64,000 nucleotides of DNA from an uncultured Bacteroidales bacterium (lineage in GTDB: Bacteria; Bacteroidota; Bacteroidia; Bacteroidales; Paludibacteraceae). The stretch spans positions 56,449-120,448 of the forward strand of contig CADCBB010000007.1 of assembly GCA_902799555.1 (NCBI GenBank), given 5' to 3'. The notes below the pieces were generated by a model. It was not told the DNA's origin. It saw only the letters and a list, made by a program, of their open reading frames with translations, and searched no databases. Positions within the stretch are counted from its first letter, which is position 1. Each line of letters begins with the position of its first letter. The position numbers and the translations under genes were made by a program. Below, in pieces: positions 2,090 to 59,370 of this stretch.

Positions 2090-2133
2090 CTCAATAATCA
2101 CACAATAATCGCCCTATAATCACCCAATATGCC
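2090..2133. repeat. 11-bp tandem repeat in leader (4 imperfect units)
   Basis: Units CTCAATAATCA, CACAATAATCG, CCCTATAATCA, CCCAATATGCC, lying between the promoter and start codon of the 141-residue protein gene. Confidence 0.6.
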
Positions 2134-2198
2134 TCCTTCGCAGACCTTATTTTTAATGGGATTACATAGTGTTCTATGGTTGGTTTTTAAATCGGGTG

Positions 2199-2230
2199 CA
2201 AAGGTACAAAGATTTTTTGATATATGCAAA
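2199..2230 (-). promoter_or_regulatory. Promoter of the 141-residue protein gene
   Basis: Minus strand TACCTTTG (2199-2206) with TTTG at 2227-2230 (TTTGCATATATC), 20 bp apart. An AT-rich 38-bp block (2219-2256) covering the -33 element recurs at 5816-5853. Confidence 0.7.
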
Positions 2231-2314
2231 TAAATAAGAGAAAAAAGAAGATTTTTGCAAAATATCGGATATAATCCGATTTCAATAGACGAAACTCGCG
2301 GCGAAGCGATGATT

Positions 2315-2911
2315 TTATCTTATTGATTCAATGATTGTTTCCGTCCATTGAGGGAGTGTATCCGCATATTGCTTTGCGAGTTTACCATCTATTGTACGGA
2401 ACAATAATTGTGCATTTTGATTCTCAATTGAGTTGTCATAGAAGTATGCTCTATCTGCAAAGCCGGCTACCTTTATGGCGTTGATAATTGCTTTCTCGTA
2501 ACGCGATATGATCTTTTTAATTGGCACATCGTGACCACCTTCCATAACGCGATTTGCGATACGAGCAGCATTAATGGTCGGCGATTCGGTGCAGATAAAG
2601 AACATTCGAATGAAATAGCCGGCCTCCTTGGCGCGTTTCATGAAATCTACTTTTCCTTCTGAAGACAAAACCGTCTCAAAGATAAAATCTTTTCGTTCTT
2701 GCAACAATTGTTCGCGCCATGTTTCGCAATACTCCACCGCTTGACGCACGGCATTGACATCATTCCAATCTCCGAACTTGCTCTGCGCAATCTCATCAGG
2801 GTTAATGTACACACATTGCTCCGCCCACTCATGTTTGATGACAAGACGAGTGGTAGACGTTTTTCCTGACCCATTAGGACCGGCAATAACTATCAGAACG
2901 GGCTTTCTCAT
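2315..2911 (-). CDS. Zeta-toxin-like P-loop kinase
   Basis: 198 residues. A Walker A motif GPNGSGKT stands at residues 11-18, followed by the zeta/AAA_33 pattern: YINPDEIA near residue 35, FIFETVLSS near residue 77 and a basic stretch ending in ISRYEKAI. Zeta toxins are kinases; characterised members phosphorylate UDP-N-acetylglucosamine, while the substrates of this chromosomal Bacteroidota subgroup are not known to me. The start codon overlaps the stop of a 51-residue protein (ATGA), the usual arrangement of a toxin-antitoxin pair. An alternative is a stand-alone nucleotide or sugar kinase. Family assignment confident, toxin role less so. Confidence 0.82.
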   Translation of the reverse strand: MRKPVLIVIAGPNGSGKTSTTRLVIKHEWAEQCVYINPDEIAQSKFGDWNDVNAVRQAVEYCETWREQLLQERKDFIFETVLSSEGKVDFMKRAKEAGYFIRMFFICTESPTINAARIANRVMEGGHDVPIKKIISRYEKAIINAIKVAGFADRAYFYDNSIENQNAQLLFRTIDGKLAKQYADTLPQWTETIIESIR

Positions 2912-3063: not shown

Positions 3064-3072
3064 AGTTTCAAA

Positions 3073-3090
3073 CCTTTGCGGGTGCAAAGG
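3073..3090. promoter_or_regulatory. Dyad CCTTTGC-N4-GCAAAGG over the transcription start
   Basis: Perfect 7-bp arms with a 4-bp centre, overlapping the -7 element of the zeta operon promoter. The same dyad occurs at 12229-12246 and 26234-26251. Possible operator; inference. Confidence 0.4.
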
Positions 3091-3116
3091 TACGAAGATT
3101 TTTTGACATATGCAAA
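3085..3116 (-). promoter_or_regulatory. Promoter of the zeta toxin operon
   Basis: Minus strand TACCTTTG (3085-3092) and TTTGCATATGTC (3105-3116), 20 bp apart. Confidence 0.75.
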
Positions 3117-3147
3117 TAAAAAACAGATTATTTCCAAATTTTGTGCA

Positions 3148-3216
3148 TTTTCACTTCTAAACTTTGCGGTATTATATTTCTAATCTTTGTTTATTTTTAC
3201 TTCTAAACTTTGTGGT
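3148..3216. repeat. 23-bp direct repeat, two copies 46 bp apart
   Basis: Copies at 3148-3170 and 3194-3216 share TTTT-ACTTCTAAACTTTG-GGT with two differences; a weaker third match (TATTTCTAATCTTTG) lies between them. Intergenic, between the zeta promoter and the end of the small membrane protein gene. Confidence 0.6.
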
Positions 3217-3217
3217 G

Positions 3218-4840: not shown

Positions 4841-4847
4841 TTAACCC

Positions 4848-8421: not shown

Positions 8422-8449
8422 ACAATTTACAATTAACAATTTACAATTT
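8422..8449. repeat. 7-bp tandem repeat (ACAATTT x4) between yitT paralogues
   Basis: ACAATTT, ACAATTA, ACAATTT, ACAATTT. The array touches the stop codon of the upstream gene and ends 1 nt before the next start codon. Confidence 0.85.
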
Positions 8450-9380
8450 ATTTGCCGTTTGCCATGGGGTCGAAGCCTTGGCCGAAAACACCACGTACCT
8501 GACTCTGGCTGACGAAGGCATTCGGATCGATGGCACGCACGAGACGGAAGATCGTAGCCGACTCATAGGAGCGGGCAATACAGGTGACCACTTTCATAGG
8601 CTTCTTGTTATAGCCTCCCTGGGCATCGAGGAAGGTACAACCCCTATGTGCCTGCGTGATGATGGCTTCGGCTATCTCATCGGGTTTCTGCGTGAAGATC
8701 ATGAACTGCACGGACTGCCTCATTCGGTTCATCACCCAGTCCACCGCCGTAGAGAGCATGAAGGTATAAGTGAGACCGAAGAGGATCTTCTCGATCGCGC
8801 CCTGCATGCCTGCCGCTTGGATCGTAGGCAGGAAGAAAGCCGAGGAGATAATGGTCATATCGGCAAACATCAGCACGCGTCCCATAGGCAGGTGATGGTA
8901 CTTATTGACGATCATGGCGATGATGTCCGTACCGCCGGTAGAGCCGTTATTGAGGAAGCATATGCCGAGGAAACAGCCGGTAAACAGACCTCCGATGACG
9001 ACCGCCATGAAAGAGTCTGTAAGCAGCGGCACGGAGGCGATAGGGATCACCTTCAGCCAAATCGTGAGCCAGAGGACACCCCATACCGTCCGCAGCGCAT
9101 AGCGCCATCCGATGGTGAGCGTCGCAATGACGAGCAAGACCACATTGATGACGGCGCTGCTGAGCCAGATCGGGATATAGGTATTCGTCGCGAAATAGAT
9201 AATCTCGCAGATACCCGTCACGCCGCCGCCTACGATAGCATGCGGCACGAGTAACTGATTGACCGTCACCGCATAAGGAATAGTGCAGAGGATGATCATC
9301 AGCAGCTCCTTAAGCGTTATCCAAGGCAAGAAACGCCGGTAATGCTGCAGTTGTTCACGCAATTTCTGATTCGACTTCAT
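8448..9380 (-). CDS. YitT family membrane protein (paralogue 2)
   Basis: 310 residues with the same architecture as its neighbour: membrane part with VPHAIVGGGVTGICEIIYF and LNNGSTGGTDIIAMIVNKYH, then a C-terminal DUF2179 domain (MIFTQKPDEIAEAIITQAHRG ... SQSQVRGVFGQGFD). Tandem duplication is evident from alignment by eye. The start codon stands 1 nt after the gcvP stop codon, so gcvP and both yitT genes probably form one operon. Substrate unknown. Confidence 0.9.
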   Translation of the reverse strand: MKSNQKLREQLQHYRRFLPWITLKELLMIILCTIPYAVTVNQLLVPHAIVGGGVTGICEIIYFATNTYIPIWLSSAVINVVLLVIATLTIGWRYALRTVWGVLWLTIWLKVIPIASVPLLTDSFMAVVIGGLFTGCFLGICFLNNGSTGGTDIIAMIVNKYHHLPMGRVLMFADMTIISSAFFLPTIQAAGMQGAIEKILFGLTYTFMLSTAVDWVMNRMRQSVQFMIFTQKPDEIAEAIITQAHRGCTFLDAQGGYNKKPMKVVTCIARSYESATIFRLVRAIDPNAFVSQSQVRGVFGQGFDPMANGK

Positions 9381-9381: not shown

Positions 9382-12201
9382 TTAGAATTTCGCTACAAGA
9401 TTGCGGTCTCCGAAACCGTTATCTACCCGTGCCACAGGGCACCAGAACTTATTATCCGCTACCCACACCGTAGGATACGCAGCCTCTTCGCGCGTGTATG
9501 GGTGCGTCCAATCGCTGCTAACAATCTCATATTCCGGGTGAGGAGCATTGAGCAGGACATTATCTTTCTTATCCGCCTTACCGGACTCGATATCCGCTAT
9601 CTCGTGACGTATCTTAAGCAGCACGTTGCAGAAACGATCGATCTCAGCAAGGGACTCGGATTCGGTAGGTTCAATCATGAGCGTACCGTGTACCGGGAAA
9701 GAGAGGGTCGGCGCATGATAGCCGTAGTCCATGAGACGCTTGGCGATATCCGCTTCGGTGATGCCGATGGCGTGGAACTGGCGGCAATCGAGGATCAGCT
9801 CGTGGCCTACTCTGCCTGTAGCGCCGGTATAGACGATGCCGTAGGCATCTTTGAGAAGCGAAGCCATGTAATTGGCAGAGAGGATAGCCGCAGCCGTTGC
9901 ATGCTTGAGTCCCTCAGCGCCCATCATCGCTATATAGCCCCATGAGATAAGCGCCATGTTCGCATTGCCGTAGAGGGCCGACGAGACACGGTTCGTATCT
10001 TCCGTTGGCAGGCAGTCCGCCATGGCTTCGGTGCAACATACAGCACCGACACCCGGGCCACCGCCACCGTGCGGCGAAGCGAAGGACTTATGCAGGTTGA
10101 GGTGGCACACGTCCGCACCGATATACGCGGGGTTGGTCCAGCCTATCTGTGCGTTCATGTTCGCACCGTCCATATAGACGTATCCGCCGTTATCATGCAC
10201 GGCTGCTATCATGGCGCGGATGGCCTGCTCGAAGATACCATGGGTGGACGGATAAGTGATCATACAGCCCGCCAGTACCTCTTTGTTCTCTTCCGCTTTG
10301 GCGGTCCAGTCGGCGAGGTCGGTATTACCCAACTCATCACACTTGACCACGCAGGGCACGAAGCCCGCCTGGGCACAGGACGCAGGGTTGGTACCATGCG
10401 CCGAAGCCGGGATAAGGAGCACGTTACGTTGGCTCTGTCCCTGACGACGGAGGTACTCACGGATCACCACCAGACCTGTGTACTCGCCGGCAGCACCCGA
10501 AGTAGGCTGCAGCGTACAAGCATCAAAACCGGTGATGGCGCAGAGCTGCTCCTGAAGATGCTCCATGATGGTCTCATAACCCGCCACTTGCTCCTTCGGC
10601 GCCATCGGATGCGGCGCCATGGCTGCACCGTAGGTGACCGGAATCATCGCCGCCGCCGGGTTGAGCTTCATCGTACAGCTGCCCAACGGAATCATCGAGG
10701 TAGCGAGCGATATATCTTTGCGGTCGAGACGCTTGAGATAACGCATCAACTCCGTCTCGGTATGGTATAGTTTGAACACCTCTGCCTGCATATAATCGAG
10801 TTCACGCACCCTACTCTCATCGATTGCCCAGAGACCTTCGAAAGCCTCGTCTGAATCTTCGTACTGCGGCATATTGCCGGAGGCTTCGGCGAACAACTCG
10901 ATCAGGTCGTTCATATCGTCTATATCGACCGTCTCATCGATCGAAAGACCGATCCATCCCGCCTCGTCATAATAGAGGTTGATACCGAGTTCTTCGGCTT
11001 TGGCCTTCAAATCGTTCAACTTTAAACTTTCATCTTTCAACTGAATTTTGAGCGTATCGAAGAACTCCACATTCTCCTGTTCGTAGCCATAGGCCTGCAG
11101 CATCTCACTCAGATAGACAGCTTTGCCATGAATACCCTCAGCGATCGAACGGATCCCTTCTGCACCGTGATAGACGCCGTACATACCGGCCATCATGGCA
11201 GAGAGCGCCTCCGCCGTACAGATATTCGAGGTCGCGCGTTCGCGTTTAATATGCTGTTCGCGTGTCTGCAGGGCGAGACGGTAGGCCGGACGATTGTATT
11301 TATCGATACTCAGCCCGATGATACGTCCCGGCATATCGCGCTTGAACTCATCGCGCGTCGCCATGTATCCTGCTGTCGGACCACCGAAGCCCATCGGTAA
11401 ACCGAAACGTTGCGCCGTACCGCACATGATATCTGCATCCAGCGGTTTGAGCAGCGCCAACGCCATGAGGTCCGCTACCACCGTCACTTTGAGACCCGCC
11501 GCATGGCAGTCCTCGATGAAGGCTTCATAATCCTCGATAGCTCCGTCACTGTTGGGCCATTGAACCAATGCACCGAAATATTCTGCGTTCGGCTCGAAAT
11601 CGGCATATGAACCGGTGACGATCTCGATACCCTGCCCCGCTGCGCGCGTGCGCAGAACAGATAAGGTGTTCGGCCAGATCTTCTCGTCCACAAAGACCTT
11701 GCGCACATTCGCCTTCACCTGTTCGCGCGAACGCAAGTTCCGCATCATGGTGACGGACTCCGCTGCCGAAGTGGCCTCATCCAAGAGCGAACAGTTCGCC
11801 AAAGGCAGACCTGTGAGGTCGCTGATCATGGTCTGGAAGACAAAGAGCGCCTCCAAACGGCCCTGGCTCACCTCCGCCTGGTACGGCGTATAAGAGGTGT
11901 ACCAAACAGGGTTCTCCAGCATGTTGCGACGAATGACTGCCGGCGTGATAGTACCGTACCAGCCGCGACCGATATACGAACGCGCCGGCGTATTGGCATT
12001 GAGTACTGCTTCCGAAAGTTCCAAATGAATCTGCTCTGTAACGGGCTCCTCTAAAGCGATGGGTTCCGGCAACAAGATATCTGCCGGCATGGTCTCACGA
12101 ATCAAGGCCTCCATAGACTCCGCTCCGATAGCCTCCAACATGTGTTTTTCATCTTCCTGCGTCAGACCAATGTGACGCGACTCAAGATAATTTTCTTTCA
12201 T
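9382..12201 (-). CDS. gcvP: Glycine dehydrogenase (decarboxylating), P-protein of the glycine cleavage system
   Basis: 939 residues, the single-chain form (N- and C-terminal halves fused). It decarboxylates glycine using pyridoxal phosphate and passes the aminomethyl group to the H-protein. The PLP lysine lies in LNLHKSFASPHGGGGPG (near residue 703). Other landmarks are SYIGRGWYGTITPAVIRRN, TPYQAEVSQGRLEALF and IPLGSCTMKLNPAA. GcvT and GcvH are not in the window. At 11014-11041 the coding sequence contains four heptamers of the GTTGAAA type, encoding a charged insertion near residues 387-396 (LKDESLKLND) beside a variable loop. Promoter at 12241-12271. Confidence 0.96.
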   Translation of the reverse strand: MKENYLESRHIGLTQEDEKHMLEAIGAESMEALIRETMPADILLPEPIALEEPVTEQIHLELSEAVLNANTPARSYIGRGWYGTITPAVIRRNMLENPVWYTSYTPYQAEVSQGRLEALFVFQTMISDLTGLPLANCSLLDEATSAAESVTMMRNLRSREQVKANVRKVFVDEKIWPNTLSVLRTRAAGQGIEIVTGSYADFEPNAEYFGALVQWPNSDGAIEDYEAFIEDCHAAGLKVTVVADLMALALLKPLDADIMCGTAQRFGLPMGFGGPTAGYMATRDEFKRDMPGRIIGLSIDKYNRPAYRLALQTREQHIKRERATSNICTAEALSAMMAGMYGVYHGAEGIRSIAEGIHGKAVYLSEMLQAYGYEQENVEFFDTLKIQLKDESLKLNDLKAKAEELGINLYYDEAGWIGLSIDETVDIDDMNDLIELFAEASGNMPQYEDSDEAFEGLWAIDESRVRELDYMQAEVFKLYHTETELMRYLKRLDRKDISLATSMIPLGSCTMKLNPAAAMIPVTYGAAMAPHPMAPKEQVAGYETIMEHLQEQLCAITGFDACTLQPTSGAAGEYTGLVVIREYLRRQGQSQRNVLLIPASAHGTNPASCAQAGFVPCVVKCDELGNTDLADWTAKAEENKEVLAGCMITYPSTHGIFEQAIRAMIAAVHDNGGYVYMDGANMNAQIGWTNPAYIGADVCHLNLHKSFASPHGGGGPGVGAVCCTEAMADCLPTEDTNRVSSALYGNANMALISWGYIAMMGAEGLKHATAAAILSANYMASLLKDAYGIVYTGATGRVGHELILDCRQFHAIGITEADIAKRLMDYGYHAPTLSFPVHGTLMIEPTESESLAEIDRFCNVLLKIRHEIADIESGKADKKDNVLLNAPHPEYEIVSSDWTHPYTREEAAYPTVWVADNKFWCPVARVDNGFGDRNLVAKF
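11014..11041. repeat. 7-bp tandem repeat inside gcvP
   Basis: GTTCAAC, TTTAAAC, TTTCATC, TTTCAAC on the plus strand (GTTGAAA family on the coding strand), in frame within gcvP. Confidence 0.75.
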
Positions 12202-12316: not shown

Positions 12317-13048
12317 ATGATACAGGTTTTGACGGCATTATTATTAGGATTACTGACTATTCTGGACCCCTGCACGCTGGTCACGAGCATCACGGCAATC
12401 AGCTATATCGATAAGGAAATCAACAACAAACGGAAGGTGCTGGGCAACGGCGCGATGTTTGTGTTGGGTAAGTTAGCGACCTACGTGCTGCTGAGTATTC
12501 CCTTCCTGGCAGGCGCGCAGACAGAAGGTATCAAGCATGTGTTAGGGCATTTCGGCGAACCGATCTTAGCGGGCTTCATGCTGATCTGCGGCGTGGTGCT
12601 GCTCTTCAGCGGTCATCATCACCATGAGCATGATCACGGCGTGAGTAAGTTCCTCCAGAACGCGGACTCGAATGCCAGTTGGTTATGGTCCTTTATCCTG
12701 GGTATCTTCTTCGCGATCGCTTTCTGTCCGCACCGTCTGGTCTATTTCCTGACGATGATCGATATCACGCTGACGCTGCCAAGCACTTGGAACTGGTTAA
12801 TGCCGGTCATCTTCGGTCTCGGTACCGGTCTGCCGATCATGCTGATCGCGTGGTTAGTAAGCTACAGCGCCGTCAGCATCGGGAACTTGACGCAGAAGAT
12901 GAGTGCCTTCGAAAAATGGTTCCGGCATATCTGTGCGGTGCTTTTCATCGGTATCGGTATCTACCTCTGCATTCATTGCGTGATCGAGTACCACGAACAC
13001 GAACACGGTGATTGCTGCCACCACGAGCATTATGAGCTTCCGCTTTAA
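12317..13048 (+). CDS. CcdA/ArsG-like membrane permease with His-rich tails
   Basis: 243 residues with six hydrophobic segments. A conserved DPC motif (LTILDPCTLVTSITAISY) sits in the first helix and AFCPHRLVYFLTMID in the fourth, as in the DsbD/CcdA superfamily and the related ArsG/Sap-type transporters. Two His-rich clusters, GHHHHEHDHG near residue 100 and EYHEHEHGDCCHHEHYELPL at the C-terminus, point to a metal or metalloid substrate. Redox function would need a cysteine pair; only the DPC and FCP cysteines are visible in membrane segments. The 3' end overlaps trmN by 17 nt. Substrate unknown. Confidence 0.75.
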   Translation: MIQVLTALLLGLLTILDPCTLVTSITAISYIDKEINNKRKVLGNGAMFVLGKLATYVLLSIPFLAGAQTEGIKHVLGHFGEPILAGFMLICGVVLLFSGHHHHEHDHGVSKFLQNADSNASWLWSFILGIFFAIAFCPHRLVYFLTMIDITLTLPSTWNWLMPVIFGLGTGLPIMLIAWLVSYSAVSIGNLTQKMSAFEKWFRHICAVLFIGIGIYLCIHCVIEYHEHEHGDCCHHEHYELPL

Positions 13049-13697
13049 ACAGTTCTACATAGAGGATAGTAAATGCGCCATGAAAGTCGGCACGGATGGC
13101 GTTTTATTAGGTGCGTGGTGTCCTAAAGGCACACGCCTTCTTGATGTAGGCACAGGTAGCGGACTGATTGCACGCATGCTGATGCAGCGCTGTCCGGAGG
13201 CTCATATTGATGCGATAGACATTGATCCCGATGCGGCCGAGCAGGCGAGAGAAAATGGCGTTAATGCGTATTGCTCATCGCTGCAAGATTGGCAGGGATC
13301 TTACGATCTGATCGTCTCTAATCCGCCTTATTTTCAGAACAGCCTGAAGAATCCCGATAAGGGGCGTGAGATGGCGCGGCATACGGATACGCTCTCTTAT
13401 GCTGAACTGATTCAGCATAGTGCGCGGTTATTGCAAGAGGGCGGTCGATTAGCGCTTATTCTGCCGGCGGAAGCGGAGAACGAGATGCGTGAGATTGCCG
13501 CACGCTATTCCTTATATTGTACGCGCGCGACGCGCGTCTATTCGAAAGAGACGAAGCCGGTGAGACGCGTTCTTTTGAGTTTCGTTATGACGACAGTACG
13601 AAATGACGACATGGCGACTGACACTTTGGTCTTAGAAGACGAAAAAGGAGGCCGAAGCCTCCCTTATCAAGAACTGTGTAGAGATTTTTATCTCTAG
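13032..13697 (+). CDS. trmN: tRNA1(Val) (adenine37-N6)-methyltransferase family protein
   Basis: 221 residues from ATG at 13032 (MSFRFKQFYIEDSKCAMKVG). The SAM-binding motif LLDVGTGSGLIA (36-47) and the N6-adenine methyltransferase motif NPPY (97-100) match the YfiC/TrmN6 family, which modifies A37 of tRNA1(Val). The family N-terminus FxFKQFxIxDxxCAMKVGTDGVLLGAW is well kept and fixes the start inside the permease 3' end. The last 50 bp of coding sequence contain the terminator of the opposing rny gene. Confidence 0.9.
   Translation: MSFRFKQFYIEDSKCAMKVGTDGVLLGAWCPKGTRLLDVGTGSGLIARMLMQRCPEAHIDAIDIDPDAAEQARENGVNAYCSSLQDWQGSYDLIVSNPPYFQNSLKNPDKGREMARHTDTLSYAELIQHSARLLQEGGRLALILPAEAENEMREIAARYSLYCTRATRVYSKETKPVRRVLLSFVMTTVRNDDMATDTLVLEDEKGGRSLPYQELCRDFYL
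13641..13662 (-). terminator. UUCG-tetraloop terminator of the rny operon, inside trmN
   Basis: Minus strand GGAGGC-TTCG-GCCTCC followed by TTTTTC, 36 nt after the rny stop codon and wholly inside the coding sequence of convergent trmN. Confidence 0.85.
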
Positions 13698-15221: not shown

Positions 15222-15511
15222 TGATTCAGTTTTTCTAATATTAATTGATTTAACTCATTGAGTGCTTTTTCAACCGGCACCAGGCTCTTTTCCCGGGCAT
15301 CGGACTGCAGGGCCACAGCCACCTCGAGGGCGGTATACATCCATAACTGCTCCGCCGATGCGTTGGGACGCAAATGAAGATAATACTGATAACGCTTATT
15401 GAGCAGTTCTGCCGCATTGCGGTAGTTTGCCTCCTGATCACGCGGCACATCGAGCCCAACGGTATGGGCATCGAGATGGAGGTTTATATGCTGGCGATCA
15501 GTATTCAGCAT
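15218..15511 (-). CDS. zapA: Cell division protein ZapA-like
   Basis: 97 residues with the ZapA pattern: an N-terminal beta part ([34 protein letters not shown]) and a C-terminal coiled coil ([18 protein letters not shown]). ZapA bundles FtsZ filaments at midcell. The gene lies between a coiled-coil protein (ZapB-like position) and rny, the usual Bacteroidota order. Its start codon lies within an ACTGAAT heptamer array, and the first codons (MLNTD) are part of that repeat. Confidence 0.85.
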
Positions 15512-15530
15512 TCAGTTTTCAGAATTCAGT
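15496..15530. repeat. 7-bp tandem repeat overlapping the zapA start
   Basis: GATCAGT, ATTCAGC, ATTCAGT, TTTCAGA, ATTCAGT (5 x 7). It spans the spacer and the first codons of zapA. Same family as 31561-31581. Confidence 0.85.
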
Positions 15531-15531
15531 T

Positions 15532-15807
15532 TTATTTCTTTAAAGCGTTAATTGCGCGATCAACTTGGGCGATGAGGGCATTGAGGCGCTTGAGGGCTTC
15601 CTCACTGCTCTCTGCCGAGGTCAAGGCACTAGCGGTCGCCAGACGTTTGTTTTGCTGCTGCAAAGCCAGCAGCTCACTATGCGTCCGAATGAGTTCTTGC
15701 CGTTGACGTTCGATATCCTCGCGCAGCGATGCATTCTCCTGCTGCAACGCCTGATAGCGCTCCAGAAGAAGATGCACATTGCGTGAGAAATCGTCGAGAA
15801 CTTGCAT
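15532..15807 (-). CDS. Small coiled-coil protein upstream of zapA
   Basis: 91 residues, almost entirely heptad-patterned (LLLERYQALQQENASLRED, RQRQELIRTHSELLALQQ) with a second short helix at the C-terminus (LNALIAQVDRAINALKK). The position directly before zapA is typical for a conserved Bacteroidota division-associated coiled coil, perhaps a ZapB analogue; that function is inferred. Start and the stop of the DUF3078 gene overlap by one base. Confidence 0.75.
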   Translation of the reverse strand: MQVLDDFSRNVHLLLERYQALQQENASLREDIERQRQELIRTHSELLALQQQNKRLATASALTSAESSEEALKRLNALIAQVDRAINALKK

Positions 15808-17108: not shown

Positions 17109-17142
17109 CAGCGTGATTTAATATCCCCTAATGTAGGCCTAT

Positions 17143-17177
17143 GAAAGTTGAAAGGTGAAAGGGGAAAGTTGAAAGGA
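17143..17177. repeat. 7-bp tandem repeat (GAAAGTT family, 5 units)
   Basis: GAAAGTT, GAAAGGT, GAAAGGG, GAAAGTT, GAAAGGA in the leader of the 1193-residue protein gene, 19 nt before ATG. Confidence 0.85.
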
Positions 17178-21255: not shown

Positions 21256-21883
21256 TTTGATTGTTTTATCGGGTGGATTGGACTCGACGACGATGTTGTA
21301 CGAGTTCAAGGATCGGATCGGCATGGCGGTGTCGTTTCATTACGGGTCTAACCATAACGACCGCGAATTGGAATATGCCAAGTTGCATTGCGAACGCCTC
21401 GGCATTCCGCATCTGGTCATTCGCCTGCCGTTCATCAAGCAGTTCTTTCAGTCATCCTTGTTAGCCGGCGCAGACGCCATTCCCGAAGGTAACTATGACG
21501 ATGAGAATATGAAATCGACCGTAGTGCCTTTCCGAAACGGCATCATGCTGTCAATCGCAGCCGGTATCGCAGAGAACAACAAGATGCAGTATATCATGCT
21601 GGCAAACCATGCCGGCGACCATACGATATACCCGGACTGCCGACCGGCATTCGTAGAAGCAATGAACAACGCCGTGCAGGCCGGCACATGGAACGGCGTA
21701 CAACTGTTAACGCCTTACACGCATATCACAAAGACGGAGATCGTTCGTCACGGCATGCAATTGGGCATCAACTACGACGAGACCTGGTCTTGTTACAAAG
21801 GTGGCGAGAAGCCCTGCGGCGTGTGCGGTACCTGCCGTGAACGCGAAGAAGCCCTCCAAGAAGCAGGATATTATGAAAAGTGA
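21245..21883 (+). CDS. queC: 7-cyano-7-deazaguanine synthase
   Basis: 212 residues from ATG at 21245 ([20 protein letters not shown]). The PP-loop ATP-binding motif SGGLDS (9-14) and the C-terminal zinc site ([22 protein letters not shown]) identify QueC, which turns 7-carboxy-7-deazaguanine and ammonia into preQ0. The start within the queF 3' end is preferred over an upstream ATG at 21173 because the family begins just before the PP-loop. The final codons and stop are part of a heptamer array leading to queD. Confidence 0.95.
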
Positions 21884-21909
21884 AAGGTGAAAAGTGAAAG
21901 GTGAAAGGA
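21875..21909. repeat. 7-bp tandem repeat (GAAAAGT/GAAAGGT x5) joining queC to queD
   Basis: Five exact 7-bp steps from the last codons of queC through its TGA up to the base before the queD ATG. Confidence 0.9.
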
Positions 21910-22242
21910 ATGTATTACGTAGAAAAGAGAATAGAGATATCGGCGGCGCATAACTTGATGTTGAGTTATGAAAGCAAATGTGAGAATCTGCATGGTCATA
22001 ACTGGATCATTGTTGTTTATTGCCGCGCCAAAGAGCTGAACCAAGACGGCATGGTGACCGACTTCACGCATATCAAGAAAGTGGTGAAGGACACTTTTGA
22101 CCATAAGTATATCAACGAGATATTGGATGTGAACCCTTCGGCGGAGAATATCGCCCGCTGGATCTGCGACCATGTAGAGAATTGCTACAAGGTGAGCGTT
22201 CAGGAAAGCGAAGGCAATGTAGCGATCTATGAAAGAGACTAG
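21910..22242 (+). CDS. queD: 6-carboxy-5,6,7,8-tetrahydropterin synthase
   Basis: 110 residues from ATG at 21910 (MYYVEKRIEISAAHNL). Zinc ligands His14 (SAAHN), His28 and His30 (LHGHNW), and Cys24 fit the QueD/6-pyruvoyl-tetrahydropterin synthase fold; the C-terminal SVQESEGNVAIYE holds the family glutamate. It converts dihydroneopterin triphosphate to carboxy-tetrahydropterin for queuosine. A GTG at 21901 lies inside the heptamer repeat and is a less likely start. Confidence 0.94.
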   Translation: MYYVEKRIEISAAHNLMLSYESKCENLHGHNWIIVVYCRAKELNQDGMVTDFTHIKKVVKDTFDHKYINEILDVNPSAENIARWICDHVENCYKVSVQESEGNVAIYERD

Positions 22243-22270
22243 GACTACCTAGGATGACCTAGGTCTACCT
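22239..22270. repeat. 10-bp tandem repeat (CTAGGnnnAC, about 3.2 units) joining queD to queE
   Basis: CTAGGACTAC, CTAGGATGAC, CTAGGTCTAC, CT. It runs from the queD stop codon (TAG) to the base before the queE ATG. Same core as the CTAGG array inside polA. Confidence 0.85.
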
Positions 22271-24254: not shown

Positions 24255-24264
24255 TTTACAATTA
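24251..24264. repeat. Two ACAATTT heptamers between exbD and tonB-like gene
   Basis: ACAATTT and ACAATTA join the exbD stop codon to the TTG start of the next gene; same unit as at 8422-8449. Confidence 0.6.
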
Positions 24265-25358: not shown

Positions 25359-25369
25359 AAAGATTATTT

Positions 25370-25391
25370 ACGATTTAACGATTTACGATTT
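25370..25391. repeat. 7-bp tandem repeat (ACGATTT x3) between pdxJ and exbB
   Basis: Three ACGATTT units, one extra A between the first two; touches the pdxJ stop codon. Confidence 0.75.
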
Positions 25392-31549: not shown

Positions 31550-31560
31550 ATTCTATTAGT

Positions 31561-31581
31561 GATCAGTAATCAGTAATCAGC
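31561..31581. repeat. 7-bp tandem repeat (AATCAGT family, 3 units) between truB and queA
   Basis: GATCAGT, AATCAGT, AATCAGC, then a decayed ATTTAG. It covers the truB stop codon. Same family as 15496-15530. Confidence 0.8.
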
Positions 31582-42942: not shown

Positions 42943-42972
42943 AAAGTATATATATACAAAGTATATATATAG
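42943..42972. repeat. 15-bp tandem repeat (2 units) after spmAB
   Basis: AAAGTATATATATAC and AAAGTATATATATAG in the spacer to ybeY. Confidence 0.7.
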
Positions 42973-43009
42973 TAAATGCACAAAAATAGCAAAAAAGTTA
43001 AAGTATCTT

Positions 43010-43048
43010 ATGGGAATCCTATGGGAATGTTATGGGAATCCTATGGGG
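43010..43048. repeat. 11-bp tandem repeat (3.5 units) before ybeY
   Basis: ATGGGAATCCT, ATGGGAATGTT, ATGGGAATCCT, ATGGGG. Confidence 0.85.
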
Positions 43049-45333: not shown

Positions 45334-45573
45334 ATGCGTACGACATTTAATCGCCTTCGTGCAGTAAAAGACAGCCTTCCGCATGGCAGTATGGACGCTA
45401 TTGCAGCTGAATTGGGAATTTCCGGAGAGGAAGTAAGAGCTTATTTCAACGGTGAGGGTAATGCTGATTACCACTTGGAGCCGGGCTTCGATGGCGGTAT
45501 TGTAGATTTCAGCAACACTCGCATTTTGGAGGTTGCCCTGCGCAAAGCATGGGAAGTGCAGAATGCACTTTAA
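45334..45573 (+). CDS. Small helix-turn-helix-like protein
   Basis: 79 residues. TFNRLRAVKDSLPHGSMDAIAAELGISGEEVRAYFNG reads like a short helix-turn-helix, followed by EPGFDGGIVDFSNTRILEVALRKAWE. I associate it with a conserved Bacteroidales small protein of unknown function; DNA binding is inferred. First gene after the promoter. Its stop codon is directly followed by a heptamer array that also includes the start region of the next gene. Confidence 0.75.
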   Translation: MRTTFNRLRAVKDSLPHGSMDAIAAELGISGEEVRAYFNGEGNADYHLEPGFDGGIVDFSNTRILEVALRKAWEVQNAL

Positions 45574-45601
45574 GTGGAAAGTGGAAAGTTGAAAGTTGAA
45601 A
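45574..45601. repeat. 7-bp tandem repeat (GTGGAAA x2, GTTGAAA x2)
   Basis: Four 7-bp units starting directly after the stop codon of the 79-residue gene. Confidence 0.9.
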
Positions 45602-46356
45602 AGTTTTTCAAAAGAGTAATAGCTCTGGTGCTATGCATCGGAGCATTACCTTTTGTAAATAACGCGAACGCGTGCGTACGAGACACGGTGGGTTTTACCT
45701 ACGGTGCGCAAGCGAGGGTGCAGGCCGCGTATTTATGGCGTGGTTTGTATGCCGGCGGGGCGAATATACAGGGTAGCGTCAATGTAGGCTACGGCGGTTT
45801 GTATGCCGACATGTGGTGGAACATCGGCGTGACGGATATGACGTTTCAGCAGTTCCAACCCGAAGTGGACTTCAGTCTGGGTTTTGCCCGATGGGGCTTG
45901 GACATATACGCCCTGTACATTCATAATTTCAACTGCGGGTTCTTTGATTTTGCGAACTATGCCGACAAGGGAAACCGCTTGGAGTTGAATGTGCGCTATA
46001 CGATCAGCAAGAAGATTCCGCTGACCCTCGCATGGGGTACGCGCGTGGCCGCTTCGGATTGTTATCTGAATGCCGTCGGGGAGATCGTTCGCGCTTATTC
46101 CAGTTACGCCGAGATCAGTTATACGCAAGCCCTTCGAGACGGCTGGAGCGTGTTCGGTGCAATCGGCGTGACGCCCTGGAAAGGATGCTACAACCCGAAT
46201 GGTGCTGCGCTGCAGAATATCGAAGTGCGAATCCGTAAAGACTGGGATTTGGGCAACCGATGCGGACTGATGGTACAAGGCCAACTTGCCGTAAGTCCGA
46301 TGGCTATGGTGCATGTGATCAATCCGAATATAACGTTTGGCGTTTATTTGAAATAA
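45574..46356 (+). CDS. Outer-membrane beta-barrel protein (paralogue 1)
   Basis: Up to 260 residues; the start is uncertain. GTG 45574 follows the previous stop directly, but the first codons (ESGKLKVEKFF) are encoded by GTGGAAA/GTTGAAA heptamers, so TTG 45589 or TTG 45595-97 just before KFFKRVIALVLCIG, a signal peptide ending VNNANA, is also possible. The mature part (AAYLWRGLYAGGANIQGSVNVGYGGLYADMWW ... NPNITFGVYLK) has barrel-like alternating strands. It shares AYLWRGxYxGG and PEVDF with the next gene, so the two are tandem paralogues. Putative porin-like protein; substrate unknown. Confidence 0.75.
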   Translation: MESGKLKVEKFFKRVIALVLCIGALPFVNNANACVRDTVGFTYGAQARVQAAYLWRGLYAGGANIQGSVNVGYGGLYADMWWNIGVTDMTFQQFQPEVDFSLGFARWGLDIYALYIHNFNCGFFDFANYADKGNRLELNVRYTISKKIPLTLAWGTRVAASDCYLNAVGEIVRAYSSYAEISYTQALRDGWSVFGAIGVTPWKGCYNPNGAALQNIEVRIRKDWDLGNRCGLMVQGQLAVSPMAMVHVINPNITFGVYLK

Positions 46357-46379
46357 CAAAAATAGAAATAACAAACAAT
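46350..46379. repeat. 15-bp tandem repeat (2 units) between the two beta-barrel genes
   Basis: GAAATAACAAAAATA and GAAATAACAAACAAT; it includes the upstream stop codon and reaches the next ATG. Confidence 0.8.
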
Positions 46380-47217
46380 GAAAAAGGTATTAGTATTAGT
46401 AGCCGCTATGATGGCGGTGGTTTTGTCTGCGAAAGCAGAAGTAGAGTTCGCTTATGAAGCGGGTGCCGATTTGGTAAGTGCTTATCTCTGGCGTGGTCAG
46501 TACAACGGTGGTTTGAGTTTCCAGCCGGAAGGTCTCGTTGGTTTTGACGCTAATGACGGAAATATCGAGTTCCGTGCCGGTGTTTGGGCCAATATTGGTG
46601 CTTCGGACTGGATGTTCAAGAAAGACGGTCTCGTTATTCCTGATGCATACAACCCCAACACGCAGTTTATGCCGGAGGTAGACTTTATTGCTTCGGTAAC
46701 AGCTTACGGCGCCAGCCTGGGTTATAACGCCTATTACTACTGCAACGACGGTAGCAACCACACTTCGGAGTTGTGGGTAGGTTATAACTTCAGCCATTTC
46801 TTCGGTGAACACGCCGGCGCGTACATCAACTGGTACACCACGATAGCCGGTGGTGGTGACCTCAAACCCGCACCTACCTTGACAGACCCCTTACGCGAAG
46901 TACAGGCGTTCTCTACCTATATCGAATTGGGCTATGACTACACGTTTGAAGACTATGGTCTGACTCTCGGCGCACAAGTAGGCCTCTCTCCGTGGGAGAG
47001 CCCGATCTACGGCAATGATAAATTCGCTTGCACCAACCTCAGCCTCAAGGTCAATAAAGAGTGGGAGTTTGAGTATCTAACACTGGATTTGTATGCAGTA
47101 GGTAGCCTGAACCCGGACGGCATCAACAAAGATAATGTTTATATCAGCGCAGCCGGTGACGACAAGCTGTATAATCAGAAACTGAACGGTTGCATTGGCG
47201 TAGGTGTTTGGTTTTAA
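46378..47217 (+). CDS. Outer-membrane beta-barrel protein (paralogue 2)
   Basis: 279 residues with a clear signal peptide (MKKVLVLVAAMMAVVLSAKA). The mature part begins EVEFAYEAGADLVSAYLWRGQYNGGLSFQPEG and shows amphipathic strands ending in GCIGVGVWF with a terminal aromatic residue, as expected for an outer-membrane barrel. It is related to the gene in front. Function unknown, possibly a porin. Confidence 0.82.
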   Translation: MKKVLVLVAAMMAVVLSAKAEVEFAYEAGADLVSAYLWRGQYNGGLSFQPEGLVGFDANDGNIEFRAGVWANIGASDWMFKKDGLVIPDAYNPNTQFMPEVDFIASVTAYGASLGYNAYYYCNDGSNHTSELWVGYNFSHFFGEHAGAYINWYTTIAGGGDLKPAPTLTDPLREVQAFSTYIELGYDYTFEDYGLTLGAQVGLSPWESPIYGNDKFACTNLSLKVNKEWEFEYLTLDLYAVGSLNPDGINKDNVYISAAGDDKLYNQKLNGCIGVGVWF

Positions 47218-47221: not shown

Positions 47222-47242
47222 GTTGAAAATTGAAAATTGAAA
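47222..47242. repeat. 7-bp tandem repeat (GTTGAAA, ATTGAAA x2) before apbE
   Basis: Three heptamers between the barrel stop codon and apbE, followed by AGGAGA, one of the few Shine-Dalgarno-like sequences in the window. Confidence 0.85.
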
Positions 47243-49496: not shown

Positions 49497-49661
49497 GTCA
49501 CTTCGTGACGTTAAAAAGTTAAAATGGTCACTACGTGACGTTAAAAGGTTAAAATGGTGACTGCGTCACGTTACTATGCAGCGTGTTAACGTCGAAGACC
49601 ATTTTAACGTCGAAGACCATCTTAACTATTTAACGTTTTTTCGCTGAAAAACCATCTTAAC
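49497..49661. repeat. Complex direct and inverted repeat between rpoZ and coaBC
   Basis: Two copies of a 30-bp unit plus a third partial copy, each with a GTCAC-nnn-GTGAC hairpin and GTTAAAATGG, are followed by two copies of an 18-bp unit (GTCGAAGACCATTTTAAC) containing its inverse. The inverted parts can form a long stem. Two mini-frames occur: ATG GTC ACT ACG TGA at 49523 and an 11-codon frame starting near 49554. Leader or attenuator function possible. Confidence 0.75.
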
Positions 49662-53612: not shown

Positions 53613-54769
53613 AAAACGAAGTTAATCGTGGCCTTGCGCCTAAGAAAAAGATACAAATGGTGGACCTGCAGTCGCAGTATGCGAAGATCAAGAACGAGAT
53701 CGATGCAGGTATACAGGAAGTGATTGATTCGGCTGCTTTTATCAAAGGACCTAAAGTAGCGGAGTTTCAGGCGCACTTAGAGGCCTACACCGGCGCCAAA
53801 CATGTGATCAACGTAGGTAACGGTACAGACGCCTTGCAGATCGCCCTGATGGGTTTGGGTCTGAAGCCGGGCGATGAGGTCATTACGCCGACTTTCACTT
53901 TCATTGCTACCGCCGAAGTGGTAGCGCTCTTAGGTCTGACGCCGGTAGTGGTTGACGTAGACTGGAATACGATGAATATGGATATCGAGTCCGTGCGTCG
54001 CGCCATCACGCCTCGTACCAAAGCGATCGTGCCGGTGCACCTCTTCGGTCAATGCGCCGACATGGAAGCGATCATGGCTTTGGCGAACGAGCATCATCTG
54101 TATGTAGTAGAGGATGCCTGTCAGGCGATAGGAGCCCAATTCACCTTCTCTAACGGAGAAACCAAGCAGGCCGGAACAATCGGTCATATCGGTTGCACCT
54201 CTTTCTTCCCCTCGAAGAACCTCGGTTGCTACGGCGACGGCGGCGCTATCTTCACCAACGACGATGCTTTGGCTGATCGCATGCGTGCGATCGCGAACCA
54301 CGGCTGTCATGTGCGTTATCACCATGACGAAGTGGGTGTCAACAGCCGTTTGGATTCGATCCAAGCCGCTATTCTGGATGCAAAACTGCCGCATCTGAAC
54401 GACTATATCGCAGCGCGTCAACGCGCGGCAGCTTTCTATGACGAAGCATTTAAAAACAACGATAAGTTGCTCATTCCGGGTCGTCAAGCGCACTCGACGC
54501 ATGTGTTCCATCAATACACGCTGCGCGTGATAGGAGCGGATCGCGATGCGTTGCGCGAAGGGCTGGCTGAACGCGGTATTCCGGCAATGATTTATTATCC
54601 CGTTCCGCTGCACCAACAGAAAGCATACCTCGATCCCCGTTATAAAGACGGAGACTTCCCTGTTGCCGAAAAACTGGCTGCATGTGTGCTGTCCTTACCG
54701 ATGCATACAGAGTTGGACAATGAGCAACTTGAATACATTGTAAGCAATGTACTTGAATTGCTCCGTTAA
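53609..54769 (+). CDS. DegT/DnrJ/EryC1/StrS family PLP aminotransferase
   Basis: 386 residues from ATG 53609 (MKNEVNRGLAPKKKIQMVDLQSQYAKIKNEID), overlapping the ybbR-like stop by 4 nt. Core: HVINVGNGTDALQIALMGLGLKPGDEVI, VPVHLFGQCADMEAI, VVEDACQAIGA, the PLP lysine in CTSFFPSKNLGCYGDGGAIFTND (near residue 202) and GVNSRLDSIQAAILDAKL. Such sugar aminotransferases make amino sugars for lipopolysaccharide or glycans. No other sugar genes are adjacent, so the substrate is open; WbpE/PglE-like function is possible. Confidence 0.9.
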   Translation: MKNEVNRGLAPKKKIQMVDLQSQYAKIKNEIDAGIQEVIDSAAFIKGPKVAEFQAHLEAYTGAKHVINVGNGTDALQIALMGLGLKPGDEVITPTFTFIATAEVVALLGLTPVVVDVDWNTMNMDIESVRRAITPRTKAIVPVHLFGQCADMEAIMALANEHHLYVVEDACQAIGAQFTFSNGETKQAGTIGHIGCTSFFPSKNLGCYGDGGAIFTNDDALADRMRAIANHGCHVRYHHDEVGVNSRLDSIQAAILDAKLPHLNDYIAARQRAAAFYDEAFKNNDKLLIPGRQAHSTHVFHQYTLRVIGADRDALREGLAERGIPAMIYYPVPLHQQKAYLDPRYKDGDFPVAEKLAACVLSLPMHTELDNEQLEYIVSNVLELLR

Positions 54770-54786
54770 ACCGTTAAAGCATTAAA
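54763..54786. repeat. 8-bp tandem repeat (CCGTTAAA x2, GCATTAAA) before rpoN
   Basis: It starts in the last codons of the aminotransferase gene, includes its stop codon and ends 5 nt before the rpoN ATG. Confidence 0.8.
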
Positions 54787-56944: not shown

Positions 56945-57909
56945 TACTGACATATATGTTGCTGCTGGCGCTGAGTCTCAGTGCCGGTACGCTGAGTGAC
57001 CAAGCACGTATCTCGCTGCTCACTTGTACACCGGGTGAAGAGTTGTATGCCCGTTATGGTCACACAGCGATACGAGTATGCGACACGGTGCAGGACATCG
57101 ATATCGTGTTCAACTACGGTATCTTTGATTTCAACACGGATCATTTCTACTGGAAGTTTGTCAAAGGCGAGACCTGGTACGAGTTGGGCGCCAGTCCTTA
57201 CTGGTGGTTCATGCGCGAGTATGAAGAGACGCAGCGACCGGTGTATGAGCAGGTGCTGAACTTGGATTCAACCCAACGCGAGGCAATTTGGCAAGCCTTG
57301 GTCGTCAACTATCAACCCGAAAACCGGCAGTACCTCTATAATTTTGTCTTTGACAATTGCGCAACACGACCTTTTGTGTTGTTCGAGCAAGCCTTAGGTG
57401 ACAGCATTGTCTCGCCTTATACCGGCTATACCGGCGTAAGTTACCGGCGCTTTATCCGGCACTATACGCCACAAGGTTCGTGGGCTGATTTCGGTATCAA
57501 CTTGCTCTTCGGTCCAAGAGCCGACCAGCCGATGAATAACAGACAGCGTTTGTTCCTGCCGGAAGAGCTGATGCGGTATATGAGTCAGGCGCACCATGGG
57601 AGTACACCTATGATCTCTTCCGAACAGATCGGTGCTTTTGCTATTCAACCCGTTCCATGGTACAAGACCTGGTATTTCGGGCTCGTTCTTTATTTTATAG
57701 CACTCTGCCTTATCAGCCTCTACGACCGAAAGCGTCAACGCTGGTCATGGGGCATTGAGTTGGCGATCGGCATTCCTTATGCCCTGCTGCTTATTATTGT
57801 CACTTTCCTAACCTTCTTCTCCTGCCATCCTTTAGTTGGTTTCGGCTGGAGACTTTTAATCCTTCCTTTGACACATCTATGCGCACGATTCATTTATATA
57901 TTACGTTGA
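56932..57909 (+). CDS. DUF4105 membrane protein
   Basis: 325 residues from ATG 56932 (MRKIILTYMLLLALSLSAGT, signal peptide). DUF4105 core: SLLTCTPGEELYARYGHTAIRVCD, FNYGIFDFNTDHFYWKFVKGETWYELG and the nucleophile-like NFVFDNCATRPFVLFEQALG, all periplasmic; His and Cys in conserved positions recall NlpC/P60-like folds. The C-terminal third has three to four membrane helices. Overlaps both neighbours. Function unknown. Confidence 0.87.
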   Translation: MRKIILTYMLLLALSLSAGTLSDQARISLLTCTPGEELYARYGHTAIRVCDTVQDIDIVFNYGIFDFNTDHFYWKFVKGETWYELGASPYWWFMREYEETQRPVYEQVLNLDSTQREAIWQALVVNYQPENRQYLYNFVFDNCATRPFVLFEQALGDSIVSPYTGYTGVSYRRFIRHYTPQGSWADFGINLLFGPRADQPMNNRQRLFLPEELMRYMSQAHHGSTPMISSEQIGAFAIQPVPWYKTWYFGLVLYFIALCLISLYDRKRQRWSWGIELAIGIPYALLLIIVTFLTFFSCHPLVGFGWRLLILPLTHLCARFIYILR

Positions 57910-59339
57910 TTCTCAGCCTCTTATCCTTCGGGCTGAATGCGGCTCCGCGCCTTACCGTGGTAGCGGTAGTGGACGGAATGACGACCGAAGATCTCAATAA
58001 ACTGCGTCCTTACTGGCAGCAAGGAGGCTTACGGACACTGAGCGAAGAGGCGTATCAGACGAGTATCTCTTATCCGCACCTCGTGTATGGCGGAAATGAG
58101 ACGACCGCTACGCTGATGACCGGTGTGCTGCCTCAACGGCACGGTTATACGATGGACACCTATTTCCTGCGCCGGGATCGAAATATCCATATGCTTTTGG
58201 AAGACGAGTCGGCACATGGCATCGGTACCAACGCCCATATATCTCCCAAAGCGCTGCTGGCGCAAACCATGACCGACCAGATGCGCCTGAGATATCCCGA
58301 GGCCAAGATCTATGCCATCGGTACGAGTCCTCAGACAACGGTTCTGATGGCCGGCCATGCGGCAAATGCCTGCTGCTGGATCGACTCGGAGAGAAAGACT
58401 TGGGTGGCTACAGCTGCGTATACCGAAGGTCTTCCTTCGGCAGCGTACGAGCAGAATAAGAACGGTAAAATAGCAACTATTGCCGAACGGACATGGACCC
58501 CGCGTATGGAGATACCGGTATATACCTGTCCTACCGAACAAGAGAAGAAGAAAGGATTCAGTTATCCGGTCGGCCAAGTGCTCTTGCGTGCGCCCCAAGC
58601 TAACACACTGGTCATTGAGTTGGCCTTGGATATCCAAAAAGAAGCTAAATTAGGTACAGACGCTACACCGGATATGCTGATGCTGCACCTCAACACCTTG
58701 AGTCCCGCGGCGGAATCGGATTATATCGCCAGCGCCGAACACGAAGATATGTACTTATGGCTCAATCAGGATCTGGGCTATCTGATGGAGCAGTTGGACA
58801 AACGTATCGGACGCACGAACTACCAGATCTTGGTCGTTGGCCGCCCTGTCTTAGGCACCTCTTCACAAACGCTGACGAACCTGCACATGCCGGTTCAGAC
58901 CTTTAATACGGATCGGGCAGCAGCCCTGACCGGTACGTACCTCATGGCCCTCTACGGACACGAACGATGGATAGACGGCAGTTATGGGCAATCGATCTAT
59001 CTCAACCGCACGCTCATTGAGCAGAAACGCTTGAGTCTGGAGACCTTCCAGCGGCAAGTAGCCAATTTCTTGATGGATTTTGAAGGAATACAGATTGCCA
59101 TGCCTAACTACGAAGCCGTTCTTTATCCGCAACTTGGTACCAGCCTCAGCAAACGACATACAGGCGATGTGGTCTTTATGCTGCAACCTGGATGGCAACT
59201 CAAGCACGGAGAGACACGCGTCATTGATCATGTGATCGACGACAAACCCTCTTCACCGCTTCTGCTTTGGAGCGGCACCCTGCGACCGATGCCACAAGAT
59301 CAATTGGACGCAACCGATGTGATGGGATTGATCTTCTAA
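57879..59339 (+). CDS. Alkaline-phosphatase-superfamily protein lacking the second metal site
   Basis: 486 residues with a signal peptide (1-21). The fold resembles PafA-type phosphodiesterases/alkaline phosphatases: VVAVVDGMTTEDLNKLRPYW (first metal Asp in VDGM), YGGNETTATLMTGVLPQRHGYTMDTYF (nucleophile region) and AIGTSPQTTVLMAG. In active members the later blocks read like DYIGHAFGP and TADHG; here they are ESDYIASAEHEDMY and LVVGRPVLG, so the Asp/His metal ligands are gone. A non-catalytic sensor or scaffold is likely. It overlaps DUF4105 by 31 nt. Confidence 0.82.
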   Translation: MRTIHLYITLILSLLSFGLNAAPRLTVVAVVDGMTTEDLNKLRPYWQQGGLRTLSEEAYQTSISYPHLVYGGNETTATLMTGVLPQRHGYTMDTYFLRRDRNIHMLLEDESAHGIGTNAHISPKALLAQTMTDQMRLRYPEAKIYAIGTSPQTTVLMAGHAANACCWIDSERKTWVATAAYTEGLPSAAYEQNKNGKIATIAERTWTPRMEIPVYTCPTEQEKKKGFSYPVGQVLLRAPQANTLVIELALDIQKEAKLGTDATPDMLMLHLNTLSPAAESDYIASAEHEDMYLWLNQDLGYLMEQLDKRIGRTNYQILVVGRPVLGTSSQTLTNLHMPVQTFNTDRAAALTGTYLMALYGHERWIDGSYGQSIYLNRTLIEQKRLSLETFQRQVANFLMDFEGIQIAMPNYEAVLYPQLGTSLSKRHTGDVVFMLQPGWQLKHGETRVIDHVIDDKPSSPLLLWSGTLRPMPQDQLDATDVMGLIF

Positions 59340-59340
59340 A

Positions 59341-59370
59341 TAACAAAATGGTAAATGACAAAATAGTAAA
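59341..59370. repeat. 15-bp tandem repeat (2 units) before the DUF4494 gene
   Basis: TAACAAAATGGTAAA and TGACAAAATAGTAAA. If translated from ATG 59348 it would give the repeated peptide VNDKIVND. Confidence 0.8.

Follow-up and report, generated by a model that had tools for sequence, protein, structure and literature searches.

Short tandem-repeat arrays at gene junctions and within genes of an uncultured Bacteroidales bacterium often differ in unit between sister species

Short tandem-repeat arrays, mostly of 7-bp units, lie between and within the genes of a 64,000-nucleotide stretch (hereafter the window) of an uncultured Bacteroidales bacterium of the Paludibacteraceae (assembly GCA_902799555.1, contig CADCBB010000007.1, positions 56,449 to 120,448). 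The genome that contains the window (2.34 Mb, 82 contigs, 86% completeness; "own" below) was compared with relatives located via RNase Y, of which the best 80 of 585 loci were used. These are mostly uncultured Paludibacteraceae or Bacteroidales assemblies, many of ruminant origin; the loci of the genus are metagenome assemblies, most of them so titled. The closest relative, here called the sister species (locus L028, genome G061), is collinear with the own contig C7 and 90.9% identical to it over 98.5 kb aligned. Arrays were detected without gaps at periods of 5-16 and a score of at least 12, and genes and gaps were taken from a simple purpose-built gene caller, not from annotation. At orthologous sites the repeat unit often differs between related species, while the place and the span of the array stay.

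An earlier sequence-only reading of the window had listed 16 array sites under a title that gave about 17, and had missed an array within gcvP (11015-11042). The listed arrays are real: 14 of the 16 were matched by none or one of 300 dinucleotide shuffles of each 64-nt stretch, the weaker sites being 22239 (3 of 300) and 24251 (13 of 300), and Tandem Repeats Finder called arrays no more than a few bases away from 15 sites, the exception being 24251. Most of them lie in tight spacers. On the plus strand, an array of 7-bp TGAAAAG/TGAAAGG units (21874-21908) begins just before the stop TGA (21881-21883) and ends 1 nt before the ATG at 21910, and a 10-bp CTAGG array (22239-22271) leads from the stop TAG (22240-22242) to the ATG at 22271; both had been named correctly as exact stop-to-start cases. 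The same strand carries a 7-bp GTGGAAA/GTTGAAA array running from the stop at 45573 toward the next gene (45572-45605), 15-bp arrays that span stop and start at 46349-46383 (similar in the sister, sub-threshold) and at 59337-59373 (unit kept in the sister), a 7-bp TTGAAAA array upstream of the ATG at 47251 (47222-47242; shorter in the sister), and an 8-bp CCGTTAAA array from stop to start (54763-54786), where the sister has a 7-bp ATTTGTG array. Judged by eye, the array at 45572-45605 may also supply the start of the next gene, with an in-frame GTG/TTG before a signal-peptide-like stretch.

On the minus strand, 7-bp ACAATTT units run from a stop TAA to 1 nt before an ATG (8422-8450), 7-bp TCAGnnn units make up an entire stop-to-start spacer (15498-15533), a CGTAAAT array of 7 and 8 bp extends from a stop to near the next start (25366-25392), a 7-bp array reads CTGATTA in sense (31558-31580), and ACAATTT stands twice in a weak array that the sister does not have (24251-24262). 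The tight-spacer placement does not hold for an 11-bp array of 4.1 copies in a 283-nt upstream region (listed as 2090; 2085-2129, minus strand; unit kept in the sister), for a 7-bp TGAAAGG/TGAAAGT array in a divergent upstream region of 310 nt (listed as 17143; 17142-17176, plus strand), and for the sites 42943 and 43010 in a 157-nt spacer. The last two had been taken as separate arrays, but together they make up a single composite, dispersed element ahead of a gene (42943-43047, plus strand), built from a 15-bp TATATATAC and an 11-bp TATGGGAATCC array, which recurs in the sister (L138, L136) and in own locus L017. The recurrence of GAAAGTT, ACAATTT, ATTCAGT/AATCAGT and CTAGG at distant sites is likewise real, except that CTAGG at 28868 is not in a spacer but inside polA.

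Such arrays are abundant well beyond the window. In 438 kb of the own genome including the window we found 103 arrays, and 0 in two shuffles; 58 of them are period-7 arrays, that is, dispersed 7-bp direct repeats in several copies, followed by periods 8 (15 arrays), 11 (7) and 15 (7). BLAST with 201 bases containing the array at 17143 gave at least 33 further places in the own genome (E ≤ 0.001; 40 of 129 candidates scored). Among the 80 relatives' loci, arrays were dense in the nearest relatives and rare, with exceptions, in loci of Bacteroides, Phocaeicola and Parabacteroides. Locus L035, with 0 arrays in 21 kb, was rejected as a natural array-free relative for comparing gene content, since 101 kb of its genome hold 20 arrays.

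A comparison with shuffled spacers gives a clear excess: arrays occur in 33 of 68 codirectional spacers of 20-60 nt (495 kb), against about 0.8 in shuffles. By length class, they occupy 21 of 48 own and 18 of 36 sister spacers of 20-40 nt, and 12 of 20 and 5 of 14, respectively, of 41-60 nt (0.2-0.9 arrays per class in shuffled spacers), although part of the excess is to be expected, a 30-nt array being by itself enough to make a spacer of that length. Of the 66 own period-7 arrays (495 kb), 33 are in codirectional spacers and 28 in predicted genes; the corresponding numbers for the 52 sister arrays are 32 and 18. Per 10 kb, there are about 131 arrays in 20-40-nt spacers versus 1.3 in genes. 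Stops in all three sense frames are present in 18 of 33 own and 24 of 32 sister arrays in codirectional spacers, stops in all three antisense frames in 7 of 33 and 11 of 32. No in-gene array has stops in all three frames (0/28 own, 0/18 sister), which follows from what a gene is.

At the junctions, the array is the spacer. We compared 58 codirectional junctions between the two species, after 17 that did not align and 13 with a gap over 100 nt had been dropped, and set aside 6 of the 58 with a weak array. An array was present in one species only at 12 junctions, 4 own and 8 sister, and at 11 of these (3/4 and 8/8) the array-free side had a gap of at most 3 nt, whereas the array side measured 11-61 nt. 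Arrays probably pry abutting genes apart and do not fill an old spacer. The description of the arrays as spacer filler is correct in that they do form stop-to-start spacers, but it reverses the order, because array-free relatives mostly have no spacer to fill; moreover, arrays also lie within genes. Since an abutting or overlapping junction is replaced by about 30 nt, the coupling of the two genes could change, and to this extent the earlier idea of a variable coupling may hold. The direction is probably gain rather than loss, best supported at 15498, where many relatives have an ATGA overlap, and in a TrmN-like gene described below, because more distant sequences mostly lack arrays there; for outgroup polarity with G015 too few arrays could be mapped.

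The exchange of units was scored in both directions. From own to sister, 13 of 32 arrays were switched, 9 had the same unit, 6 were without array and 4 unmapped; from sister to own, 13 of 84 were switched, 8 the same, 14 without array and 49 unmapped, many of the latter outside the own contig. Thus, 13 of 28 mapped own arrays were scored as switched, with span differences of -18 to +12 nt, and 11 of the 13 are clear by eye. The switched labels at C7 2536 and 49208 and the sister label "same" at 8609 fail this inspection, the "same" label at 38159 is a T-rich stretch, and the gcvP array is sub-threshold in the sister mapping and outside its counts. Clear switches (own versus sister) are ACAATTT/TCAGTAT at 8422, where L117 has GTAGAAA units; TGAAAGG/TTTGTAA at 21874, with TTTGTAA also in L036 and TTGGTAA in L038; and GTTGAAA/AACGGTT at 45572, where ATCGGTA accompanies AACGGTT in the sister. 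At 22239, 8-bp CTAG arrays are found in L029, L036 and L038, and an unrelated hairpin-like element in the sister. Where the unit is kept, length changes by whole units: a one-unit difference is seen in 2 of the 9 kept arrays and in the sub-threshold array at 25366, the sister being 7 nt longer at 15498, 25366 and 31558 with TCAGnnn, CGTAAAT and CTGATTA retained. One array is identical in both sisters (C7 43011). Among pairs of loci of at least 78% identity, which are non-independent as many share a species, 71 of 216 mapped comparisons were switched, 15 the same, 5 the same but decayed and 125 without array; 396 of 612 comparisons were unmapped and excluded from these rates. Between L030 and L031 (95.8% identity), 3 of 6 mapped arrays were the same, and 2 of 5 in the reverse direction.

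Arrays are not special to spacers, and protein alignment confirms several of those that lie in named enzymes. GcvP was aligned from the window and 21 relatives' sequences, of which L120 is off-frame and was disregarded, leaving 20 usable, with array labels assigned by eye. The 7-bp array in frame at codons about 387-397 (11015-11042, minus strand) consists of GTTGAAA units in the window and L108; the same codons hold 8-bp GGATTAG(T/C) units in L028 and L114, TTCAG heptamers in L117, GTCGAAA/GTTGAAA in L122, 6-bp AAAG units in L113 and L119, and a plain RDEDEGWQ-type stretch in most other relatives. In the PolA linker, a 9/18-bp CTAGG array is in frame at codons about 288-301 (28860-28899, minus strand), where the sister carries a different 9-mer array. 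Own-versus-sister alignments with in-frame arrays further include a YihA/YsxC GTPase (+7 aa in own), a MATE transporter at two sites, an RND adaptor, an AmpG-like transporter, a 4'-PPT-like protein, DapA (+9 aa in the sister), YgiQ and a TrmN-like methyltransferase (+8 aa in the sister). The matches behind the names TrmN, AmpG and 4'-PPT are below the curated cut-offs for these exact names.

The clearest in-gene case is the TrmN-like gene, in which species-specific 7- or 8-bp arrays occur at three sites and in 12 of the 16 sequences that matched with more than 100 bits. The window copy (13032-13697, plus strand), L035, L041 and L060 have none at a score of at least 11. An array of this gene differs between L030 and L031 by 21 nt, which equals three units and is in frame. 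AlphaFold2 modelled the sister protein (mean pLDDT 79) with residues 14-26, 79-97 and 194-202 as coil, so that the three array sites are predicted to lie in or across coil between strands and helices; the confidence at these sites is partly low, with residues 20-22 and 88-94 under 50.

The dominant units are lineage-specific. Identical units were shared by 129 pairs among the 66 own arrays (5.2 expected, maximum 17 in 2000 draws) and by 102 pairs among the 52 sister arrays (3.2 expected, maximum 15), when the expectation came from heptamers sampled in spacers of that genome outside the arrays. AAAGGTG is used by 13 of 66 own and 0 of 52 sister arrays (Fisher p 5e-4), AAAAATT by 1 of 66 and 13 of 52 (p 8e-5). 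Stretches that match three GTGAAAG units exactly are present in 14 of 61 genus genomes, with 22 matches at 9 places in the own genome, and AATTAAA stretches in 18 of 61, with 61 matches in G043 and 3 in own; the two patterns have different leading genomes. Order-wide, GTGAAAG was found in 6 of 295 genomes, own included, and is therefore rare but not unique to the genus. Within arrays, a constant core (TGAAA, AATT) is combined with varying linker positions, the variable positions numbering 89 versus 117 by random placement (reached in 0 of 500; 48 arrays).

Copies most often number 4-4.5, whether the period is 7, 8 or 11, and most tightly so within genes. In 1.61 Mb of genus sequence (91 pieces) we found 333 period-7 arrays, against 9 in shuffles; 53 have 2.5 copies, 56 have 3.5, 47 have 4, 96 have 4.5 and 16 exceed 5.5. 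For period 8 the commonest class is 4-4.5 copies (38 of 86), for period 11 it is 4 copies (19 of 56). The in-gene arrays of own and sister have 4.5 copies in 27 of 46 cases and none is below 3.5, with a detection floor near 2.9, while the spacer arrays (n=65) spread more widely, 24 having 4.5 copies. A step of 7 nt would shift the frame, which speaks for the in-gene arrays having arisen as blocks.

Sites, in-frame cases, whole-patch presence and absence, unit switching, commonest copy number, lineage-specific units and the length differences of one and three units are all directly supported. To explain them, we propose, with about even confidence, that the arrays are dispersed tandem-repeat patches under fast turnover, each written whole from a repertoire peculiar to the lineage. 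Such a patch, about four to five units long (of period 7, also 8 or 11), would arise in one step where it is tolerated, at the junction of two abutting genes or in a protein loop. Its sequence would come from a repertoire differing between lineages and most simply be copied from resident arrays, possibly by short-homology template switching while DNA is replicated or repaired. Once in place, the patch may slip by whole units, by one in spacers and by three in frame inside genes, and it could be lost or have its place taken by another array. Selection would retain arrays that end the upstream gene with sense-frame stops, or that stay open and in frame within genes. Blocks of foreign units, repertoires that differ between lineages and turnover at tolerant sites are easier to explain by copying from resident arrays than by purely local slippage.

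Several observations weigh against this proposal. The copying step itself was not observed; no array could be paired with its donor, and array mosaics vary from site to site. A test for local seeding used 15 cases, period-7 or -14 arrays for which the sister has no array, with low-identity and short segments excluded. The full unit was present in 3 of the 15 array-free orthologs versus 0.8 expected (13 of 400 permutations reach 3), and the mean best similarity of these orthologs was above all 400 permutations, whereas their longest exact match was unexceptional (reached by 50 of 400). Hence, some local seeding exists. In addition, composition or the stop codon could favour some units, as with CTAG arrays beside a TAG stop. 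The copy number at period 7 is not cleanly single-peaked, given 53 arrays at 2.5 copies versus 4 in shuffles, and a peak at 4-4.5 units is not a prediction of template switching. Finally, abutting genes are usual anyway, with a gap of at most 3 nt at 21 of the 32 junctions that are array-free in both sisters.

Much of this would suit ordinary local slippage, in which a 7-bp word beside a tolerant site duplicates, expands and drifts without anything being copied from elsewhere. The single-unit steps, the 3 of 15 orthologs that contain the unit, the frequency of 2.5-copy arrays (53 of 333) and the match of the CTAG arrays at 22239 to their stop context all agree with it, and in a 2007 survey, cited in PMC4679880, most genomes had heptanucleotides as their most abundant class of long simple repeat. 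However, the full unit is missing from 12 of 15 array-free orthologs; units recur, in a lineage-specific manner, about 25 times as often as in a draw from spacer heptamers outside arrays; all in-gene arrays have at least 3.5 copies even though a 7-nt step breaks the frame; and switched sites retain span but not unit. We therefore consider slippage as the general cause possible but doubtful.

A bolder but unlikely reading is that a dedicated, template-bearing machinery writes counted patches, of about 4-5 units and a period set by the template, into breaks or junctions, the template changing between lineages. If this were true, gene spacers and enzyme loops would be rewritten genome-wide on the time scale of species divergence. 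A dedicated writer of this kind, a telomerase-like reverse transcriptase or other enzyme whose repeat DNA heals breaks, appears slightly less probable again. The constant core with variable linker and the common count of about 4-4.5 whatever the period would fit it; the anatomy resembles that of interstitial telomeric insertions, short arrays with array-free orthologs (parts of PMC7215372), and templated synthesis of 9-nt tandem cDNA by DRT10 gives a bacterial precedent (parts of PMC12632851). Against it, RVT_1 matches were found in only 5 of 8 array-bearing genomes, and none in G063, which is among the richest in arrays; metagenome-assembled genomes are incomplete and divergent enzymes could escape such a search. 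Reverse transcriptase as a general cause is not supported by this distribution. Nor is loss of mismatch repair a simple reason, as the MutS_V family is present in 8 of 8 genomes, and Ku, sought as a sign of Ku-type end joining, was found in 0 of 8.

The sequence-only reading had proposed a function, namely that arrays are selected as unstructured ribosome landing zones or tunable gene couplers. Their density in tight codirectional spacers and their prevailing sense orientation there (TGAAA-type 14 of 18 own, AATT-type 15 of 22 sister) are in line with this, and a translational role was suggested for TAACTGA arrays (PMC4679880). However, the need for a stop codon accounts for the orientation at least as well as a landing zone. 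A landing zone alone would not account for units that differ wholly between sister species at one junction, nor for copies inside coding sequences with the same commonest copy number, and many relatives do without arrays; we regard selection for such a function as an improbable origin. Least probable is an artefact of assembly or binning, or whole-allele exchange by recombination between species: the genus loci are metagenome assemblies, but arrays occur in assemblies from several projects, one (C7 43011) is identical between the sisters, in-gene frames remain open, and allele exchange would move arrays rather than create them.

Related repeats are known from other bacteria. The STRR heptamers of cyanobacteria are dispersed, mostly intergenic arrays with several sequences per genome; for them and for other long simple repeats, neither in-frame turnover in housekeeping enzymes nor a switch of unit at orthologous sites is known to have been described. 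Rickettsia palindromic elements are short DNAs inserted in frame in housekeeping genes at tolerated positions, but they are palindromic and of shared sequence, whereas here tandem units differ between species at one site. TAACTGA arrays ahead of gene starts were reported from Beggiatoaceae, cyanobacteria and five Bacteroidetes (MacGregor 2015; PMC4679880), Paludibacter propionicigenes with two sets of heptamer arrays among them, so that heptamer arrays near starts were already known in this phylum. According to that paper, the repeats are 7-bp direct repeats with a small number of units that mostly stand directly before starts or cross the upstream stop, with stops in all frames in forward orientation and some reverse copies inside ORFs (open reading frames), and MacGregor (2015) thereby covers part of our finding. 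A single sequence prevails there and related heptamers seldom form repeats, whereas the present arrays use many different units and periods; the commonest own unit (13 of 66) is absent from the 52 sister arrays, dominant units change between sisters and orthologous sites switch units. Passages on the GGGNATC repeats of Xanthomonas and Nostoc link a four-unit preference to G4 folding (PMC4692102). The unit number here is similar, though the dominant units AAAGGTG and AAAAATT are not G-rich; of 28 mapped arrays, 9 have the same unit in the sister as in own. With interstitial telomeric repeats (PMC7215372, in part) our arrays share insertion as whole short tandem arrays opposite array-free orthologs, and DRT10 (PMC12632851, in part) demonstrates that templated tandem-repeat synthesis exists in bacteria; here there are no telomeres, and RVT_1 was not found in 3 of 8 genomes. 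In the open-licence literature searched, we found no prior account of unit switching, of a common copy number across periods or of recurrent in-frame turnover in enzymes.

The arrays record, in a natural and countable form, a mutational process by which abutting genes become separated and loops of housekeeping enzymes altered, and which is fast enough for species 91% identical to differ. A start-stop overlap can be broken by about 30 nt without a recognisable mobile element, and arrays are a source of new protein segments. The data suggest that the four-unit preference of G-rich heptamers is not limited to quadruplex formers, and the orthologous array-free and switched sites make the old question of how heptamer arrays spread testable.

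Other repeats were noticed in the same sequences. A hairpin-like element TTTAACGTTTTTTCG..GAAAAACCATCTTAAC stands immediately before the ATG at 49662 (49586-49661), and a near copy precedes another gene in the sister (L028 2739-2770, minus strand; L140 is the same place). At 49497-49573 lies a 30-bp repeat with GTCACTACGTGACGTTAAAA units, and similar stretches occur in L010, L108, L144, L155 and L054. At 3128-3216 lies a 23/46-bp repeat (AACTTTG...), about 41 nt of which are missing in the sister. Long upstream regions at L010:2296-2360 and L025:8789-8853 contain 11-bp TTAGTAGGTGA-type arrays, and one such array of 82 nt lies in the sister contig; an exact GTGAAAGGTGAAAGGTGAAAG stretch is present in six viral contigs (L174-L179).

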